The notes under the pieces: model-generated
Seen by the model: the letters and a program-made list of their open reading frames with translations, nothing else
The model's database searches: none
Told to the model about the DNA's origin: nothing
Made by a program: the position numbers and the translations under genes
DNA from: Anaerolineae bacterium
GTDB lineage: Bacteria > Chloroflexota > Anaerolineae > J102
Assembly: GCA_026991225.1 (NCBI GenBank)
Contig: JALXCB010000139.1
Span: 1-43,550 of the forward strand
DNA: 43,550 bases
Direction of reading: 5' to 3'
In this document: positions 11,831 to 42,621 of the stretch, piece by piece
Layout: the number at the start of each line of letters is the position of its first letter
Numbering within the stretch: the stretch's first letter is position 1

Positions 11831-14800
11831 TCAATTCCTTTGGCGACGCTCCACCTCTAAAGAGTCCTCGCCCAAAAGCTGCCGCACATCCGCGACGAGC
11901 TCAGGGCAGTAGCGGGTTTTGCGGTCGGGAAAGTCGATGCGCAGGGTTTCGCCCGCGCGGGCGATTTGCAAGTAGAAGGGCTCGTCACCCGCGTAGCTAT
12001 CCAACAGTCGCATGAGCGCATCCAGACGGCGCAGGTCATCCGCGCTATCGTCGGAGAGCTGGAAATGGATGCACAGGGTGCGCAGGGGACGGTCGGGCGT
12101 GGGAGGCATGGGGGGCTCCTCGGTGTGATGGCCGTTGTCGCGGGCGGCCGCAGGCGGAGGATCGGGCGGAGGCGTAAGCAAGTCGGCGGCATACGTGGGC
12201 GTCCACGTTTCCCTCAGCGCGCTTTCATCGTCCAAAGGGAACGCTTCTTCCTCATCTTCTGCGAAATCAGACTGAGCGGAGCGGAGCAGGGCGTTGATAT
12301 CCTCATCGGGCTCATCCAACGAAGGCAATGCATCCGCCCGCACGGGGATATCCTTCATGATGTCATCGGCCAGAATGCCCGCTCGCTCGTTCCGCACGTC
12401 CACCTTGCCCCGCACCAGCACGATGCGCCCCTCCACCAGCAGGTCCCGGGCCTTTTCGTACAGCTTGGGGAAGACGGTGACGTCGCAAAAACCCTCCATG
12501 TCCTCCAAAGTGACGAAGGCCATGCGGTCGCCTTTTTTGGTGAGGATGGTGCGCACGCCCGCGATCATGCCCAGCACAGAGACGAAGCGCCCCTGACGGG
12601 CGGGGGTGATGTCGATGCAGGTGGCGTTGACCGCGTGGGCGTAATCCACCGAAAGCTCCATGAGAGGATGGGAGGAAACGTAAACGCCCAGCAACTCCTT
12701 CTCCCAGGCCAGTTTCTCTTTGGATGGCACGCGCTCGTAATTGATGGGCAGACGCAGTTCGCTGCGCATCCCGCCCATGTCCATGTCCCCGAACATATCG
12801 AACAGGCTGACCTGTCCCACGTCCTTCGCTTCCCAAACGCTCTTGGAAAGGGCCTGCATCTGATCGATGGCCGCCAGCAATTGCTCCCGCTCGCCCCAGG
12901 CGTCCAGCGCCCCCACCTTGATCAGGGCCTCCAGCGCCCGGCGGTTGACCTTGCGCAGGTCCACCCGTTCGCAGAAATCGGTGAGGGACTGGAAGGGGCC
13001 GCCCTCGCTGCGGGCGCGGATGATCTCCTCCACCGGGCCTTCGCCCACGTTCTTGATGGCGGCCAGGCCGAAGCGGATGGCGGAGCCGGGCGGCACGCGG
13101 AAATCAAAGCGGGTGCGGCCAAAGGTCTTGACCTCGGCGGCCTCGGGCGATTCCACGATGGTGAACCCCGCGTCGGACTGATTGATATCGGGCGGGAGCA
13201 CCTGGATGCCCATGTGGCGGCATTCTTTGATGAAGTTGGTCACCTTGTCCAGGTTGTCCCGCTCCACCGTCAGCAGCGCAGCCATGTATTCCACCGGGTA
13301 GTGGGCCTTGAGATAGGCCGTCTGCACGGTGATGACCGCGTAGTCCGCGGCATGACTGTTGTGCACCAGGATGTCGTTGGCGATGAAGTTGTGGGTTTCG
13401 GGGATTTCGAGGTCATACGTCTGTTTTTCGCCCACGAAATCAATCGCCGCGATCTTGTCCCAATAGATGTCGTTTTGGGCGTAGCGGCGGAGATCGTCGT
13501 CATCGAAGAATTCCGCCAGGCGTTGGATGGTCTGCCGCCGGAAACCGGTTTTGTTGGGATTGTCGGCCGGATAGAATTCCCGCTGCGCCACGCCCGTGCG
13601 CTGGTTGATCTCCTTCCAGCTCATGCCCGACCGATCTTTGGCCTCCCGAACGAATGCCTTGACCGCCAAGGGCACGATATCCTTGCTGGATTGATCCTGT
13701 TTGACGTCAGTCAGCAAACCATTCAGGGCGGCGCGGCATTTTGAGCTGACAAAATAGACGCCTATCTGAGCGGCAAAGGCCCAGATATGCTCATCGCCCG
13801 TGATGAAAAGCTGGTAGCCTGTACGCCCTTCTTTGTAGGGGAATTCGACCGTGCGCAATCGGGAGAGAATGCCGAACCGCAGCAGCAGGTGCTGGAGTTG
13901 GCGGGCGAGTTTTTCCGAGGCAGTGGCGTAGAACAGGCTGCGTCCGCCCACGTTGATGTGGCCGTCCCCCTCCCACATGCGGCTGATGAGAAGCGCGATC
14001 TGGCGGTTGGTGAGCTCGAATGCGTCGGGGGGAATGGTCTTCTCCGCGGCCTTCTTCCCCCAGATGCCGATGGCTTTGGCCCAGGTCACGATGCCCGCTT
14101 CCCGGCTGCGGTCGATGCGCTTCGCATACGCCGAATGCGTCCCCTTGTGGAGGGTCACCCGGCATTGGGTGTTGTCGAATGCTTCGGCCGCCCGGCAATA
14201 GTCCGCCAGCAGGGCGTCGTCCTGAGTGTAGAAATAGACGGATGCAGGATGACGCAGGTTGCCCTCGGCCAGCAGGTGGCCCAGGGCGATGACCTCATGG
14301 TCGGGCCATTGCTTTTGGCCCTGGATGGGGATAACGCGCGGGGTGGCGATGAGATCGCCGGGTCGCAGGTCGGCCAGGAGTCGCCAGCCATGAAAGGTGT
14401 AGAAAGGATGGTTGGCCGTGGCCTCGATGACCCGCCCCGATGCGGTTTTCAGGCGGAATACAGGCTTGACGCCGTTGTCCATGACGCGGGCCACGGGCTG
14501 CGCGCGCAAGGTGAGCGTGTCGACGTCGCAGCTCACGGTGCGAGTGAGCCGCGCCCGGCCATGATAGAGGTCTTCGATGCGCACCAGGCGTCCGGTTTCG
14601 GCGTCCAGCACCTCGACGTCGCCCGGCAAACATTTGTTGAAGCCGTAGTTGGCGAAGAAGACGATATCTTCGTAGATTTTCGTGGCCGCGTCCGGCGGGA
14701 TGCCGTTGGCCACCGCGCCCTCGATGAATTTCACCTTGTGCGCGGCCATCTCCTTTTCCTTCTTCTTGGCCACGGCCCGCCGCATGAGATCGGCCTCGCC

Positions 14801-16906
14801 CGGGGTGTAGCCTGCAAGCTGGGACGCGATCTGGATGATCTGCTCCTGATAGACGATGATGCCGTAGGTTTCGGCCAGGATGGGCTCCAGCGCGGGATGG
14901 ACGTATTTCACCGGCTTGCGGCCATGCATGCGGTCGATGTAGAGGGGGATGTATTGCATGGGGCCGGGGCGGTAGAGGGAGATGGTGGCCACGATGTGCT
15001 CGAATTTCGTGGGCTTCATGCTGCGCAGCACGCCCCGCATCCCCTCCGATTCCACCTGGAAGACGCCGGTGACCTCGCCCGAGGCCAGGAGTTCGTAGGC
15101 GCGGGGATCGTCGGTGGGGATGTTGTTCAAATCGTATTCGACGCCATGCCGTTCCTTGATCAGCTCTGCGGCCACGCGCATGATGGTGAGGGTGGCCAGG
15201 CCCAGAAAGTCCATCTTCAGCAGGCCCAGGCTTTCCAGCACGGGGTACGTGAATTGGGTGATGTAGTCGCGCACGGCCTTGCTGGGCGCGCGCACCAGGG
15301 GCGTGTAGTTGATGAGAGGCTTGTCGGCGATGATGACCGCGGCGGGGTGGATGCTGATATGCCGGGCCACGCCTTCCAGTTTTTTGGCGTTGTCCAACAA
15401 CTTTCGCACCTGCTCATCCCGATCATAGAGCTGCTTCAGCTCCTTGACCTCTTCCAGGGCTTTCTTCAGGGTGACTTTAGGGCCGGCCGGGATCAGTTTG
15501 GCGATCTGATCCACTTCATCCAGGGGGATGTTCATGGCCCGGGCCACGTCGCGCACGCTGGCCCGGGCTTTCATCGTGCCGAAGACCACGATCTGCGCCA
15601 CCCGATCATCCCCATATTTCTCCAACGTGTATTCGATCATCTGGTCCCGCTGGTCGTCGGGGTAGTCGAGATCGAAGTCGGGCATGGAGACGCGGCCGGG
15701 GTTGAGGAAGCGCTCGAAGATGAGGTTGTTGGGCAGGGGATCCAGGTTGGTGATGCCGATGGCGTAGGCCACCAGGGACCCTGCGCCCGACCCGCGCACA
15801 TTCCACCAGATGTTTCGCTTCCGCGCGTACTCGCACAAGTCCCACACGATGAGGTAATAGACGTCGAATCCCATGTCGTGGATGATCTTGAGTTCGTGCT
15901 CCTTGCGCTTCTGAATCTCCGGGTCTTTGGCCCGCTTGCCGTAGCGCCGTTTCAGGCCCTGTTCGGTGAGGTGGCGCAGGTAGGCCTCGGCGCTGTCGAA
16001 GCCGGGGGGCAGGTCGAAGTGGGGCAGGTGATAGCCGGTGGGGCTCAGGTCCACCTCGGCCATCTCGGCGATGCGCAGGGTATTGGTGAAGGCGCTTTCG
16101 GGCAGGTCGATGTAGGGCCGGAATGCGTCTTCCAGCTCACGCCGCGACTTCAGGTAGTACCCGAAGTCGGACATACGCATCCGGTTTTCGTCGTCCAGGG
16201 TGCTGCTGGTCTGCACGCAGAGAAGGATGTCGTGGGATGGACCGTCGTCGGGATAGACGTAGTGGACGTCGTTGGTGACGATCATGTCCAGATCGTATTC
16301 CTTGGCCCACTGGATCAAGGTGCGATTCACCTTATGCAGCGCGGGGATGTCGTGCATCTGAAGCTCGACGAAGAAGCGATCGCGGCCGAATACGTCGAGA
16401 TACCACTCCAGGCGCTGGCGGGCCAGTTTTTCGTCGGGCGGGCCGTCCTCGTCGCTGAGATAGGTGGGCACTTCGCCCGCCAGGCAGCCGGTGGTGGTGA
16501 CGATTCCTTCGTTGTAGCGGGCCAGCAGATCCGCGTCGATGCGGGGTTTGTAGTAGTAGCCGCGGGTGTTGGCCTCGGAGACCAGTTTCAGCAGGTTGAG
16601 GTAGCCGGTCTGGTTGATGGCCAGCAGGAGGATGTGATGGCGGAAGCTGTCCTTTTGCGGGTCGCGGCCCGTCATGGGGCGGCCCCAGCGGGTGATGTAG
16701 CCCTCGACGCCGATGATGGGCTTGACGCCCGCTTTCGTGGCCGCGTTGAAGAAATCGATGGCCCCGTGCATGTTGCCGTGGTCGGTAAGCGCGACCGCGG
16801 GCTGGCCTAACTCTTTGGCCCGTTCGACCAGATCATCGATTTTGCTGAGGCCGTCGAGCAAGGAGTATTGGCTGTGGACGTGGAGATGGACGAAGTCGTC
16901 GGGCAT
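11831..16906 (-). CDS. dnaE: DNA polymerase III alpha subunit, intein-containing precursor
   Basis: A 1691-residue precursor of the replicative polymerase; removal of the intein leaves 1266 residues, normal for DnaE. The N-terminal PHP domain starts [13 protein letters not shown] and keeps [14 protein letters not shown]. Palm residues D410 and D412 lie in [11 protein letters not shown], matching the catalytic pair D401/D403 of E. coli DnaE. Next come the PolC thumb/fingers words ([31 protein letters not shown]). After the intein comes [21 protein letters not shown], then the helix-hairpin-helix region and an OB fold ([27 protein letters not shown]). The start at [12 protein letters not shown] is the family start; the frame is open further upstream but without conserved sequence. 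A Pro-rich insert near the C-terminus (about [15 protein letters not shown]) joins a last small domain. Confidence 0.96.
13358..14632 (-). other. Intein with LAGLIDADG homing endonuclease inside DnaE
   Basis: A 425-residue class 1 intein (precursor residues 759-1183) between extein residues ...YGFNK and SHAADYAV.... Splicing residues are all visible: Cys1 in [12 protein letters not shown] (block A), TxxH in ATANHPFYT (block B), block [24 protein letters not shown], and the terminal His-Asn in ILVHN, followed by Ser+1. Two LAGLIDADG-type helices, LGHLLAEGN and [11 protein letters not shown], keep their acidic residues, so the endonuclease is probably active. The insertion point is a highly conserved DnaE segment, three residues downstream of where the cyanobacterial split DnaE intein sits (before CFNKSH). 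Confidence 0.93.
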
Positions 16907-17010
16907 GGGGAATCGGCATTCAGTAATAAAGCTTTGTCTCACGCAAAGTCGCCAAGGCGCCAAGGGAAATGTCCCAGATTCGGCCTTTTTCGCTTCCGCG
17001 CTCTCGGTTT

Positions 17011-17259
17011 CTAAACTGAAATCATTTTGAAACTCGGTATTTTTTGGGGCCACGCCCGCCCGGCGCTGAAGCCGCCGGGCTACGGAACGACGCCGGGTAA
17101 ACCCGGCTTGATTGCGGCCACGGCAGAAAAGCCCCATTCATGGGGCGTCGTTCTTAGCCCGCAGGTTCACCTGCGGGTGGCTGCATAGCCTTTAGAACAG
17201 CGTCATTTTCGCATGGAAGTCGAGCCAAAAACCTGGTTTTCATTTTGCTTCCAGTTTGG
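17011..17259 (+). repeat. Hairpin-chain repeat, family B copy 1
   Basis: Ends CTAAACTGAAA... and ...CTTCCAGTTTGG are inverted copies of each other. Between them is a row of hairpins: GCCGGGTAAACCCGGC, GCCCCATTCATGGGGC and CCCGCAGGTTCACCTGCGGG. The same row with small changes occurs at 26546-26951 and 33689-34282. No target duplication could be found for this copy. The rest of the gap (16907-17010 and 17260-17330) shows nothing further. Confidence 0.75.
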
Positions 17260-18738: not shown

Positions 18739-18892
18739 GTAACTGCTAAGGTATCGCCACCACTTTTTGCCACGAAGACACGAAGAAAAGCCAAGGCACG
18801 ACGTATTTTTCTTGATTTTTCCTTCGTGTCTTCGAAAAACTTCGAGCCTTCGTGGCTTTTGGCGGCCTAAAGTCAAGTACGTTAGCAGTTAC
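18739..18892 (+). mobile_element. 154-bp palindromic mobile element, copy A1
   Basis: Starts GTAACTGCTAAG and ends CGTTAGCAGTTAC, forming inverted terminal repeats. It is flanked on both sides by CAAACAGC (18731-18738 and 18893-18900), a perfect 8-bp target duplication. The interior is an imperfect long palindrome (GCCACGAAGACACGAAG against CTTCGAGCCTTCGTGGC) with no coding capacity. It differs from copy A2 at about five positions over its length, so both moved recently. Behaves as a MITE, a non-autonomous element moved by a transposase coded elsewhere. Confidence 0.9.
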
Positions 18893-18951
18893 CAAACAGC
18901 GTTGAAAGAGATGAATATTCTTATCCTTTGTGGCTTTGTCCGGCCATCATT

Positions 18952-21864: not shown

Positions 21865-21958
21865 GTGGGAATCCAGCAAAATAATCGGATGGAGGACGCA
21901 GGTTCCACCGTTAAGATTAACAAAGATAGGGCGGTTGGGCAAACGGCCACATCTTGAT

Positions 21959-22148
21959 GGGTGCGTCCCAGAAATTTGGCGTCATCCAGCCGACTGAAGT
22001 CGAACTCTTCAGGCCTGCGGCCAGTGGACGGCCTCCGCCGTCCAAAATCATGCCAACAAATGGTCGCCGGAGGGCGACCACCGGCGCGAAGCGCCTTAAG
22101 GGCACGAGTTTACTTGGCAAGTGCTTGCCAAGAAATTGGGACGCACCC
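21959..22148. mobile_element. 190-bp hairpin-chain mobile element G
   Basis: The ends are a perfect 12-bp inverted repeat (GGGTGCGTCCCA / TGGGACGCACCC), flanked by the perfect 9-bp duplication CATCTTGAT (21950-21958 and 22149-22157). Inside is a row of separate hairpins: GACTGAAGTC, GGCCTGCGGCC, GGACGGCCTCCGCCGTCC, GGTCGCCGGAGGGCGACC, GGCGCGAAGCGCC and CTTGGCAAGTGCTTGCCAAG. No coding capacity. Part of the same interior occurs at 26491-26535, and one end recurs after the maoC-like gene at 42534. The flanking stretches 21873-21949 and 22158-22308 hold nothing I can support. Confidence 0.88.
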
Positions 22149-22308
22149 CATCTTGATTTCGACGCGCGGAAAGCTGGCGATCTCCGCCCAACGCTTCCCC
22201 TTGCTGCAGGTGGCCAAAACCCCTGGCAATGACGCCACAATCGATCACTCGGGATTCGTTGGCAGCCGGAAAAACGCTTCAGAGAGGGGTGTAATGGGCA
22301 GAAAAATA

Positions 22309-22462
22309 GTAACTACTAAGGTGTCGCCACCACTTTTTGCCACGAAGACACGAAGAAAAGCGAAGGCACGACGTATTTTTCTTCATTTTTCCTTCGTGTC
22401 TTCGAAAAACTTCGAGCCTTCGTGGCTTTTGGCGGCCTTAAGTCAAGTACGTTAGCAGTTAC
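22309..22462 (+). mobile_element. 154-bp palindromic mobile element, copy A2
   Basis: Starts GTAACTACTAAG, ends CGTTAGCAGTTAC, and is flanked by a perfect 8-bp duplication GAAAAATA (22301-22308 and 22463-22470). Same length and almost the same sequence as A1. It sits directly next to the -35 position of the ppdK promoter. Confidence 0.9.
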
Positions 22463-22490
22463 GAAAAATATCGGAAACGGACGGGAGCTG

Positions 22491-26545: not shown

Positions 26546-26951
26546 CTAAACGCATTTTGAAATCAGGTGTTTTCGGCCTCGGCCACCCGGAGCTGAAGCT
26601 CCGGGCTACGAAACGACGCCGGGTGAACCCGGCTTCCCGCGGCGCGCGACATGCGCCATAGCCCCATTTATGGGGCGTCGTTTTTAGCCCGCAGGTTCAC
26701 CTGCGGGCGGCGGCGCGGCCAGAGAATCGCCGTAACTGCTAACGTACTTGACTTTAGACCACCAAAAGCCACGAAGGCTCGAAGTTTTTCGAAGACACGA
26801 AGGAAAAATAATGAAAAATACGTCGTGCCTTCGCTTTTCTTCGTGTCTTCGTGGCAAAAAGTGGTCGGGATACCTTAGTAGTTACGAATCGCCTTTCATT
26901 GATGATCTAATGCGAACCAAAAGCCTTGGTTTCAATTTGCTTTCAGTTTAG
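26546..26951 (+). repeat. Hairpin-chain repeat, family B copy 2, interrupted by element A3
   Basis: Ends CTAAACGCATTTTGAAATC and GCTTTCAGTTTAG. Hairpins: CCGGAGCTGAAGCTCCGG, GCCGGGTGAACCCGGC, GCCCCATTTATGGGGC and CCCGCAGGTTCACCTGCGGG. Its right part is split by the 154-bp element A3. Just before it (26491-26535) lies a fragment sharing GACTGAAGTC and GGCCTGCGGCC with element G. The gap 26456-27014 contains only these repeats. Confidence 0.8.
26732..26885 (-). mobile_element. 154-bp palindromic mobile element, copy A3, inside repeat B2
   Basis: Inverse orientation to A1 and A2: starts GTAACTGCTAACG, ends CCTTAGTAGTTAC. Flanked by a perfect 8-bp duplication GAATCGCC (26724-26731 and 26886-26893). 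Family B copy 3 at about 33756 has GAATCGCC only once at the matching place (read on the minus strand, AGAGAATCGCCTTTCAT), so it shows the empty site. Confidence 0.92.
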
Positions 26952-33692: not shown

Positions 33693-34282
33693 ACTGAAAG
33701 CAAATTGAAACCAAGGATTTTGGTTTGCATTGGATCATCCATGAAAGGCGATTCTCTGGCCGCGCTGCCGCCCGCAGGTGAACCTGCGGGCTAAAAACGA
33801 CGCCCCATAAATGGGGCTACGGCGCAGGTCGCGCGCCGCAAGAAGCCGGGTTCACCCGGCGTCGTTTCGTAGCCCGGAGCTTCAGGATACTGTTGGCAAA
33901 CCTCAAACCGGTTGCATGGGGGCCTTGCCCCCGCCGACTTGAAGTCGGGGCTAGGGGCCCTTGGCCGCCTGTCTGCCTGCGCAGACAGGTCCAACCGGGC
34001 GAAAACATGTCCCCGCAGGGGGACATGCGGCGGAACGCCCTCAGACCTGAATTCATTCGGCGTACTCGCGAGAGAAGCCGAGAGGGAGCATCCTCGACGC
34101 ACCGCAGTAAACCAACAATATCGTGAACCTGCGGGCTAAAAACGACGCCCCATGAATGGGGCTACGGTGCATGTCGCGCGCCGCAAGAAGCCGGGTTCAC
34201 CCGGCGTCGTTTCGTAGCCCGGAGCTTCAGCTCCGGGTGGCCGAGGCCGAAAACACCTGATTTCAAAATACGTTTAGTTTAG
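33689..34282 (-). repeat. Composite repeat: family B copies 3 and 4 with family E copy 2 between
   Basis: Starts CTAAACTGAAAGC and ends ACGTTTAGTTTAG. Two direct copies of a block of about 108 bases (33778-33885 and 34122-34230, differing at about five positions) flank a family E hairpin chain (about 33905-34100, with GCCTGTCTGCGCAGACAGGT, ATGTCCCCGCAGGGGGACAT and GAATTCATTCGG). Hairpins in the B blocks are CCGGAGCTTCAGCTCCGG, GCCGGGTTCACCCGGC and GCCCCATGAATGGGGC. Both outer ends overlap stop codons of neighbouring genes. It fills the whole gap and codes nothing. Confidence 0.8.
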
Positions 34283-42531: not shown

Positions 42532-42533
42532 GG

Positions 42534-42621
42534 GTGCGTCCCCAATTTTTGGCAAGACCTCCGGGAGGTGGCGCCAAACGCTTCATTTTAGCCAAAACTC
42601 TGCTGCCACCTCCCGGAGGTC
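42534..42621. repeat. Inverted repeat between converging genes, with one end of element G
   Basis: GGGTGCGTCCCCAATTTTTGG right after the maoC-like stop matches an end of the mobile element at 21959-22148. Then GACCTCCGGGAGGTGGC (42556-42572) and GCCACCTCCCGGAGGTC (42605-42621) form a perfect 17-bp inverted repeat around 32 bases. Its last bases overlap the stop codon of the propeller gene. It may end transcription from both sides. The second end of element G is missing. Confidence 0.65.

Follow-up and report, generated by a model that had tools for sequence, protein, structure and literature searches.

A mini-transposon with ISKra4-type ends in an Anaerolineae genome and a hairpin cassette carried under several end types

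Bacterial MITEs have inverted ends and a target duplication. The element described here resembles Correia/NEMIS, RUP and ERIC (PMC2229807) in being short, non-autonomous and multi-copy with a structured interior; unlike them, it carries an ordered cassette that spans MITE types differing in their ends and in duplication length. It likewise resembles the ISKra4 family of insertion sequences (ISs) (p-MULT 4, with the ISKra4, ISMich2 and ISAzba1 groups; PMC3942029), having ~22-bp ends that start with GGGTGCG and a duplication of 8-9 bp; Guerillot et al. (2014; PMC3942029) report this transposase group from Chloroflexi, with 8-9-bp duplications. The full ISs with matching ends, however, encode NF033572 transposases in two overlapping ORFs, whereas our element is gene-free and has the ends alone in common with them. 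The highly conserved domains of SINEs, such as the V domain (PMC6887750), are also common to otherwise different non-autonomous elements, although SINEs are animal retroposons and the hairpin-cassette elements are bacterial DNA transposons. REP, REPIN and BIME sequences (PMC2817692, PMC3116915 and PMC3733652) are similar in their palindromes, high copy number and intergenic position, but lack duplication-making DDE ends and belong with another transposase class. A MITE served by an ISKra4-type transposase is a known kind of element; the unusual part is that ends and hairpin cassettes combine in a many-to-many fashion, for which no bacterial precedent is described in the open-licence literature searched.

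The element comes from an Anaerolineae (Chloroflexota) draft genome of 3.87 Mb in 201 contigs; "the window" denotes the whole stretch of DNA that was analysed (43,550 nucleotides, contig JALXCB010000139.1). Perfect 12-bp inverted ends GGGTGCGTCCCA bound an element of 190 bp at window positions 21959-22148, and the perfect inverted repeat, the row of at least six hairpins and the flanking 9-bp duplication reported by the first-pass annotation proved exact to the base. Short, without a transposase gene and with terminal inverted repeats, the element is a MITE. Its features are as follows (strand given where assigned).

21950..21958: left target-site duplication CATCTTGAT, read from the sequence
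21959..22148, plus strand: 190-bp MITE with ISKra4-type ends, family F1, assigned from ends, copies and duplications
21959-21970: 12-bp left end GGGTGCGTCCCA, read from the sequence
21959..21980, plus strand: left end GGGTGCGTCCCAGAAATTTGGC, 21/22 identical to the left end of the ISKra4-family IS L090
21990..22003, plus strand: hairpin 1, CCGACTGAAGTCGA
22012..22022, plus strand: hairpin 2, GGCCTGCGGCC
22026..22043, plus strand: hairpin 3, GGACGGCCTCCGCCGTCC
22062..22079, plus strand: hairpin 4, GGTCGCCGGAGGGCGACC; one stem pair goes from C-G to A-T among copies
22083..22095, plus strand: hairpin 5, GGCGCGAAGCGCC; its loop is the site of a second hairpin insert in other copies
22105..22116, plus strand: hairpin 6, CGAGTTTACTTG
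22113..22132, plus strand: alternative hairpin of the window copy, CTTGGCAAGTGCTTGCCAAG, overlapping hairpin 6
22127..22148, minus strand: right end, inward reading GGGTGCGTCCCAATTTCTTGGC
22137-22148: 12-bp right end TGGGACGCACCC, read from the sequence
22149..22157: right target-site duplication CATCTTGAT, read from the sequence

The hairpins thus listed number six, or seven with the overlapping alternative. When single-stranded DNA of the region is folded, its stability exceeds that of dinucleotide shuffles by 5.4 SD, and none of the 200 shuffles equalled it. Elsewhere in the window, positions 11831-17137 (minus strand) encode a DNA polymerase III alpha subunit with an intein that bears a LAGLIDADG domain.

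The intergenic region that separates a glgC-like gene from ppdK is also present in the congener G004, there without the element. Its flanks join gap-free as CTCACCCCTCGATTTCGATGCGCGG, the window counterpart being CCACATCTTGAT-element-CATCTTGATTTCGACGCGCGG, and at the orthologous point it has a single 9-mer, CCCCTCGAT, where the window has two; the 9-mers of the two species differ at three positions. Since this empty site holds one 9-mer instead of two, the window copy inserted as a unit with a 9-bp duplication. In G004 the insertion point falls in the final codons of a DUF309 gene; in the window, that gene is reduced to its tail. In G005, the closest congener by ppdK, the intergenic region is unalignable and hence unusable as an empty site.

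A genome-wide search for end pairs checked for duplications, as the first-pass annotation had proposed, returned many copies with 8-9-bp duplications of their own. Allowing up to one mismatch, the genome has 232 occurrences of the end motif and 25 of a reversed control, and about 20 related, near-full copies of the window element align within this draft. Many independent copies are flanked by exact 8-9-bp duplications: for F1/F1b copies the duplication is exact over 9 bp in 9/21 and over 8 bp in a further 3/21, and for F2/F2b copies (families defined below) it is exact over 9 bp in 8/10, whereas cross-paired flanks, the control, match in 6/5112. End pairs of 119-121, 181-191, 214, 218-219, 226-227 and 349 bp have 8-9-bp duplications, exact or with one mismatch; thus several subfamilies use ends of the F1 type. 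Within an element, left and right ends usually represent different variants, one typically continuing GGCG and its partner GGCA. The excess of the motif over its control, the ~20 copies, the exact duplications and the empty site in a relative together exclude chance, and the many copies and the empty site bear out the earlier proposal that a hairpin chain can form a mobile unit of its own and duplicate 9 bp at its target. Searches of plasmid and phage collections gave no match. A single F1-type end, GGGTGCGTCCCC, lies at window positions 42532-42556, partnerless within the window.

The duplications also bear on whether the element could belong to the single-strand class of REP/REPIN or IS200/IS605 type, which an HUH (Y1) transposase moves. 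Such an element would explain why the locus is palindrome-rich, high in copy number and intergenic in the window. To our knowledge, however, this class makes no such target duplications, and the true inverted ends with exact 9-bp duplications refute it; ISs with matching ends, moreover, encode a DDE transposase of the ISKra4 family. We regard this reading as scarcely credible. The window also holds repeats with GTAACTRCTAA ends (26732-26886, about 22310-22466 and about 18739-18896), flanked by three perfect 8-bp duplications, GAATCGCC, GAAAAATA and CAAACAGC, one of them in the intergenic region of the hairpin element. These are probably the A family of the first-pass annotation, from which the hairpin element was said to differ in its ends and duplication length; with 8-bp duplications and GTAACTRCTAA ends, the presumed A family does differ in both.

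That annotation had further deduced a transposase system separate from that of the A family, and a search of congeners with extended ends brought ISKra4-family ISs with matching ends to light. In the congener Anaerolineae HyVt-591 (G002), positions 40-1502 of contig C106 (DRQW01000106.1) form a 1463-bp ISKra4-family IS, L090, whose ends are GGGTGCGTCCCAGATATTTGGC and GGGTGCGTCCCAAATTATTGGC and which contains a pair of overlapping ORFs. Of these, ORFB reaches 256 bits with the NCBIfam model NF033572 (ISKra4 transposase; cut-off 205). Over the roughly 22-bp ends, window-type MITEs and L090 agree at 21-22/22 bases, and some copies match its ends letter for letter (L049 the first end; L016 and L032 the second). 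L090 has no target duplication of its own, and it and the MITE have only their ends in common, so the MITE did not arise from this IS by simple deletion. At the terminal motif the window element also agrees with two further ISs: L118, a 1449-bp ISKra4 IS of a cyanobacterium (Leptolyngbyaceae), whose transposase (234 bits) is 55% identical to that of G002, whose ends are GGGTGCGTCCCA and GGGTGCGTCTCA and whose 9-bp duplication, CAAGAGAAG, is exact; and L136, an ISKra4-type IS of the congener G003 with the GGGTGCGTTTCA end type of the F2 MITEs, scoring 172 bits against NF033572, below the cut-off, with a stop interrupting the frame. The IS with F1 ends is present in one congener. The comparison with full ISs therefore yields ISKra4 matches, over the ends in a congener and at the terminal motif in a cyanobacterium; against the outcome that the annotation had named as fatal to its claim, neither further copies nor an IS with matching ends, stand many copies and these ISs, and the deduced second transposase system is borne out.

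Candidates that we set aside include IS1, IS1595 and DDE_Tnp_1, guessed as movers from the ends, whose domains (PF03400, PF12762 and PF01609) are absent from the genome, and a 1479-bp end pair in G001 (contig C5, L091), in which no transposase was recognised and one end is that of a chain-bearing MITE. As an observation on the ISs themselves, the run TTTTTCCCCC, or one nearly identical, lies at the ORFA/ORFB overlap in L090, L118, L119, L122, L123, L124 and L136, from several phyla, and ORFB reads there as +1 (or -2) of ORFA, versus the -1 shift described for the ISMich2 group (PMC3942029).

Taken as a whole, positions 21959-22148 are very probably a non-autonomous MITE of ISKra4 (Mutator-like) type with a conserved hairpin cassette inside, most likely mobilised in trans by an ISKra4 transposase. 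An ISKra4-family DDE transposase (prokaryotic Mutator-like group 4) would recognise the roughly 22-bp ends in trans, mobilise the element and join it to a 9-bp staggered cut in the target, here the 3' end of the DUF309 gene between the glgC-like gene and ppdK; repair of the cut would then leave the 9-bp duplication. That this transposase is the most likely mover is suggested by the match of the ends. The assembly of the genome itself, a 201-contig draft, contains no ISKra4, IS1, IS1595 or DDE_Tnp_1 transposase; its own ISKra4 IS was either lost or, being a repeat, dropped from the assembly. With no such transposase in the assembly, the copies speak for past activity, though a draft of this kind may have lost repeats.

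The interior of the element is a conserved six-hairpin cassette common to MITEs with unrelated ends. With hairpins 2-3 (AGGCCTGCGGCCAGTGGACGGC) as bait and up to three mismatches, 118 places were found in the genome, versus none for the control, and 93 distinct copies were read out of these roughly 118. Most of the 93 contain these six hairpins in unchanged order, within host elements whose ends differ; the hairpins, earlier called unrelated, do differ in sequence from one another, but do not form a random series. The end families are as follows.

F1: ends GGGTGCGTCCCA
F1b: ends GGGTGCGTCCTTTTTC with CATTTRGGACGCACCC
F2: ends GGGTGCGTTTCA
F2b: ends GGGTGCGATTCA
F3: ends TRCRCGTCCAGAAATTAG; 5-bp duplications, mostly of the form CTNRG, exact in 6/9
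F4: ends CTGRTTGACTGACAAA; 9-bp duplications, exact in 25/31

Hence the hairpin chain travels inside a transposon and, because several end types carry it, chain and ends are modules that can be separated. Another set of hairpins in the window (17056-17177, 26583-26707, 33771-33885 and 34123-34240) is likewise found inside F1-ended elements with exact duplications. GGGTGCG opens the ends of F1, F1b, F2 and F2b, all of which could be of ISKra4 type; judged by their ends, F3 and F4 do not look so. The CTG ends and 9-bp duplications of F4 presumably recall IS4-family elements, and a search for an autonomous element or transposase with F4 ends found none. F4 copies (L206, L215, L228, L229, L231, L233 and L236) often lie in simple repeat tracts rich in CGT...ACG, for example CGTTTGACGTTTGACG, which suggests a target preference.

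A single ancestral MITE whose ends had drifted would account for the common cassette without any exchange of interiors, and the GGGTGCG start of F1, F1b, F2 and F2b could indeed be a drifted ISKra4-type end. The ends of F3 (TRCRCGTCCAGAAATTAG, 5-bp duplication) and F4 (CTGRTTGACTGACAAA, 9-bp duplication), however, are unlike drift from GGGTGCG, and this reading is further weakened by mosaics. As a rule, each end family has its own type of spacer between hairpins 3 and 4, with exceptions in elements whose duplications are intact: L229 has the F2 spacer within F4 ends (duplication CGTTTGACG), L237 has F1b ends, an exact duplication AAACTATTT and the F4 spacer, and L022 and L049 have F1 ends, exact duplications and the short spacer typical of F1b. 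L229 and L237 thus combine the ends and duplication of one family with the spacer of another. Moreover, an F4 element lies ~330 bp from the L237 element, and the near-identity of this adjacent pair, of different families, is confined to the middle, as gene conversion would leave it. We consider descent from one such MITE decidedly unlikely.

In L155 and L192, half elements of two families are joined and the duplications do not match; these may be recombinants or assembly chimeras. At L154/L155 (contig C59), the right flank of the half-F2, half-F4 element repeats the left flank of the adjacent F4 element, as if the region had been rearranged by recombination through the cassette, or by an assembly error. 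That the repeats or mosaics are at large artefacts of a draft assembly would fit the 201 contigs, the several copies at contig ends and the mismatched flanks of L154/L155, which could be a chimera. Chimeras, however, would destroy the match between left and right duplications that dozens of copies show, and the families recur in congeners assembled separately, making a general artefact very improbable.

Members of F1, F2, F3 and F4 (L043, L044, L046, L153, L154, L155, L157, L164, L204, L209 and L240) have a second, longer hairpin element (CATCGAATCCTCCTTCCTTAT...GGAGGGGGCTT; about 70 bp), always at one and the same position of the hairpin 5 loop; either it inserted repeatedly or it was carried by cassette exchange. 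The patterns of ends, spacers and duplications indicate that interiors have been exchanged between end types, among at least three kinds of mini-transposon in one bacterium. The likely route would be gene conversion or recombination between cassettes, with conversion a likely mechanism.

Within the hairpins, constraint was gauged on 76 distinct cores from this and related genomes. Stem cells pair in 97.7% of cases, versus 23-50% with partners slid. The minor base has a mean frequency of 0.039 in stems, compared with 0.085 in loops and 0.25 overall outside stems. The stem figures are partly biased, hairpins 2 and 3 having served as bait and hairpin 5 as filter; hairpins 1, 4 and 6 are free of this bias. 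In hairpin 4 one pair changes from A-T to C-G on both sides (47 versus 26 copies, these being related copies and not independent events); the outer pair of hairpin 1 varies between C-G and T-A, with many unpaired cases.

The low variability of the stems relative to sequence outside them, with the clean covariation of the hairpin 4 pair, would suit a former transposon now used by the host as a functional element, such as a transcription attenuator or an RNA or protein-binding array. A search of Rfam, however, gave no family, only chance matches below threshold; G004 lacks the element at the window site and flanks vary among copies; and, beyond the bias in the stem figures, repeated conversion between copies could likewise keep stems similar. 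Such a host function therefore seems unlikely to us, if less so than descent from one drifted MITE. The mobile cassette itself may be a passenger kept alike by conversion, may help transposition, or may influence the transcription of adjacent genes. A tentative reading, to which we give somewhat less than even weight, is that the six-hairpin chain is a semi-independent module that spreads by sequence exchange among MITEs of unrelated transposases, is kept for its folded shape and not for its spacers, and parasitises or serves several transposon systems.

A class of repeat usually dismissed as filler gains a named transposase family, and with ~100 copies in one genome it provides a bacterial example of transposons whose ends and interiors evolve as modules that can be separated. 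With one cassette under several end types, selection on the interior of a MITE becomes testable. The mosaics indicate that a common cassette lets different transposon families exchange sequence.
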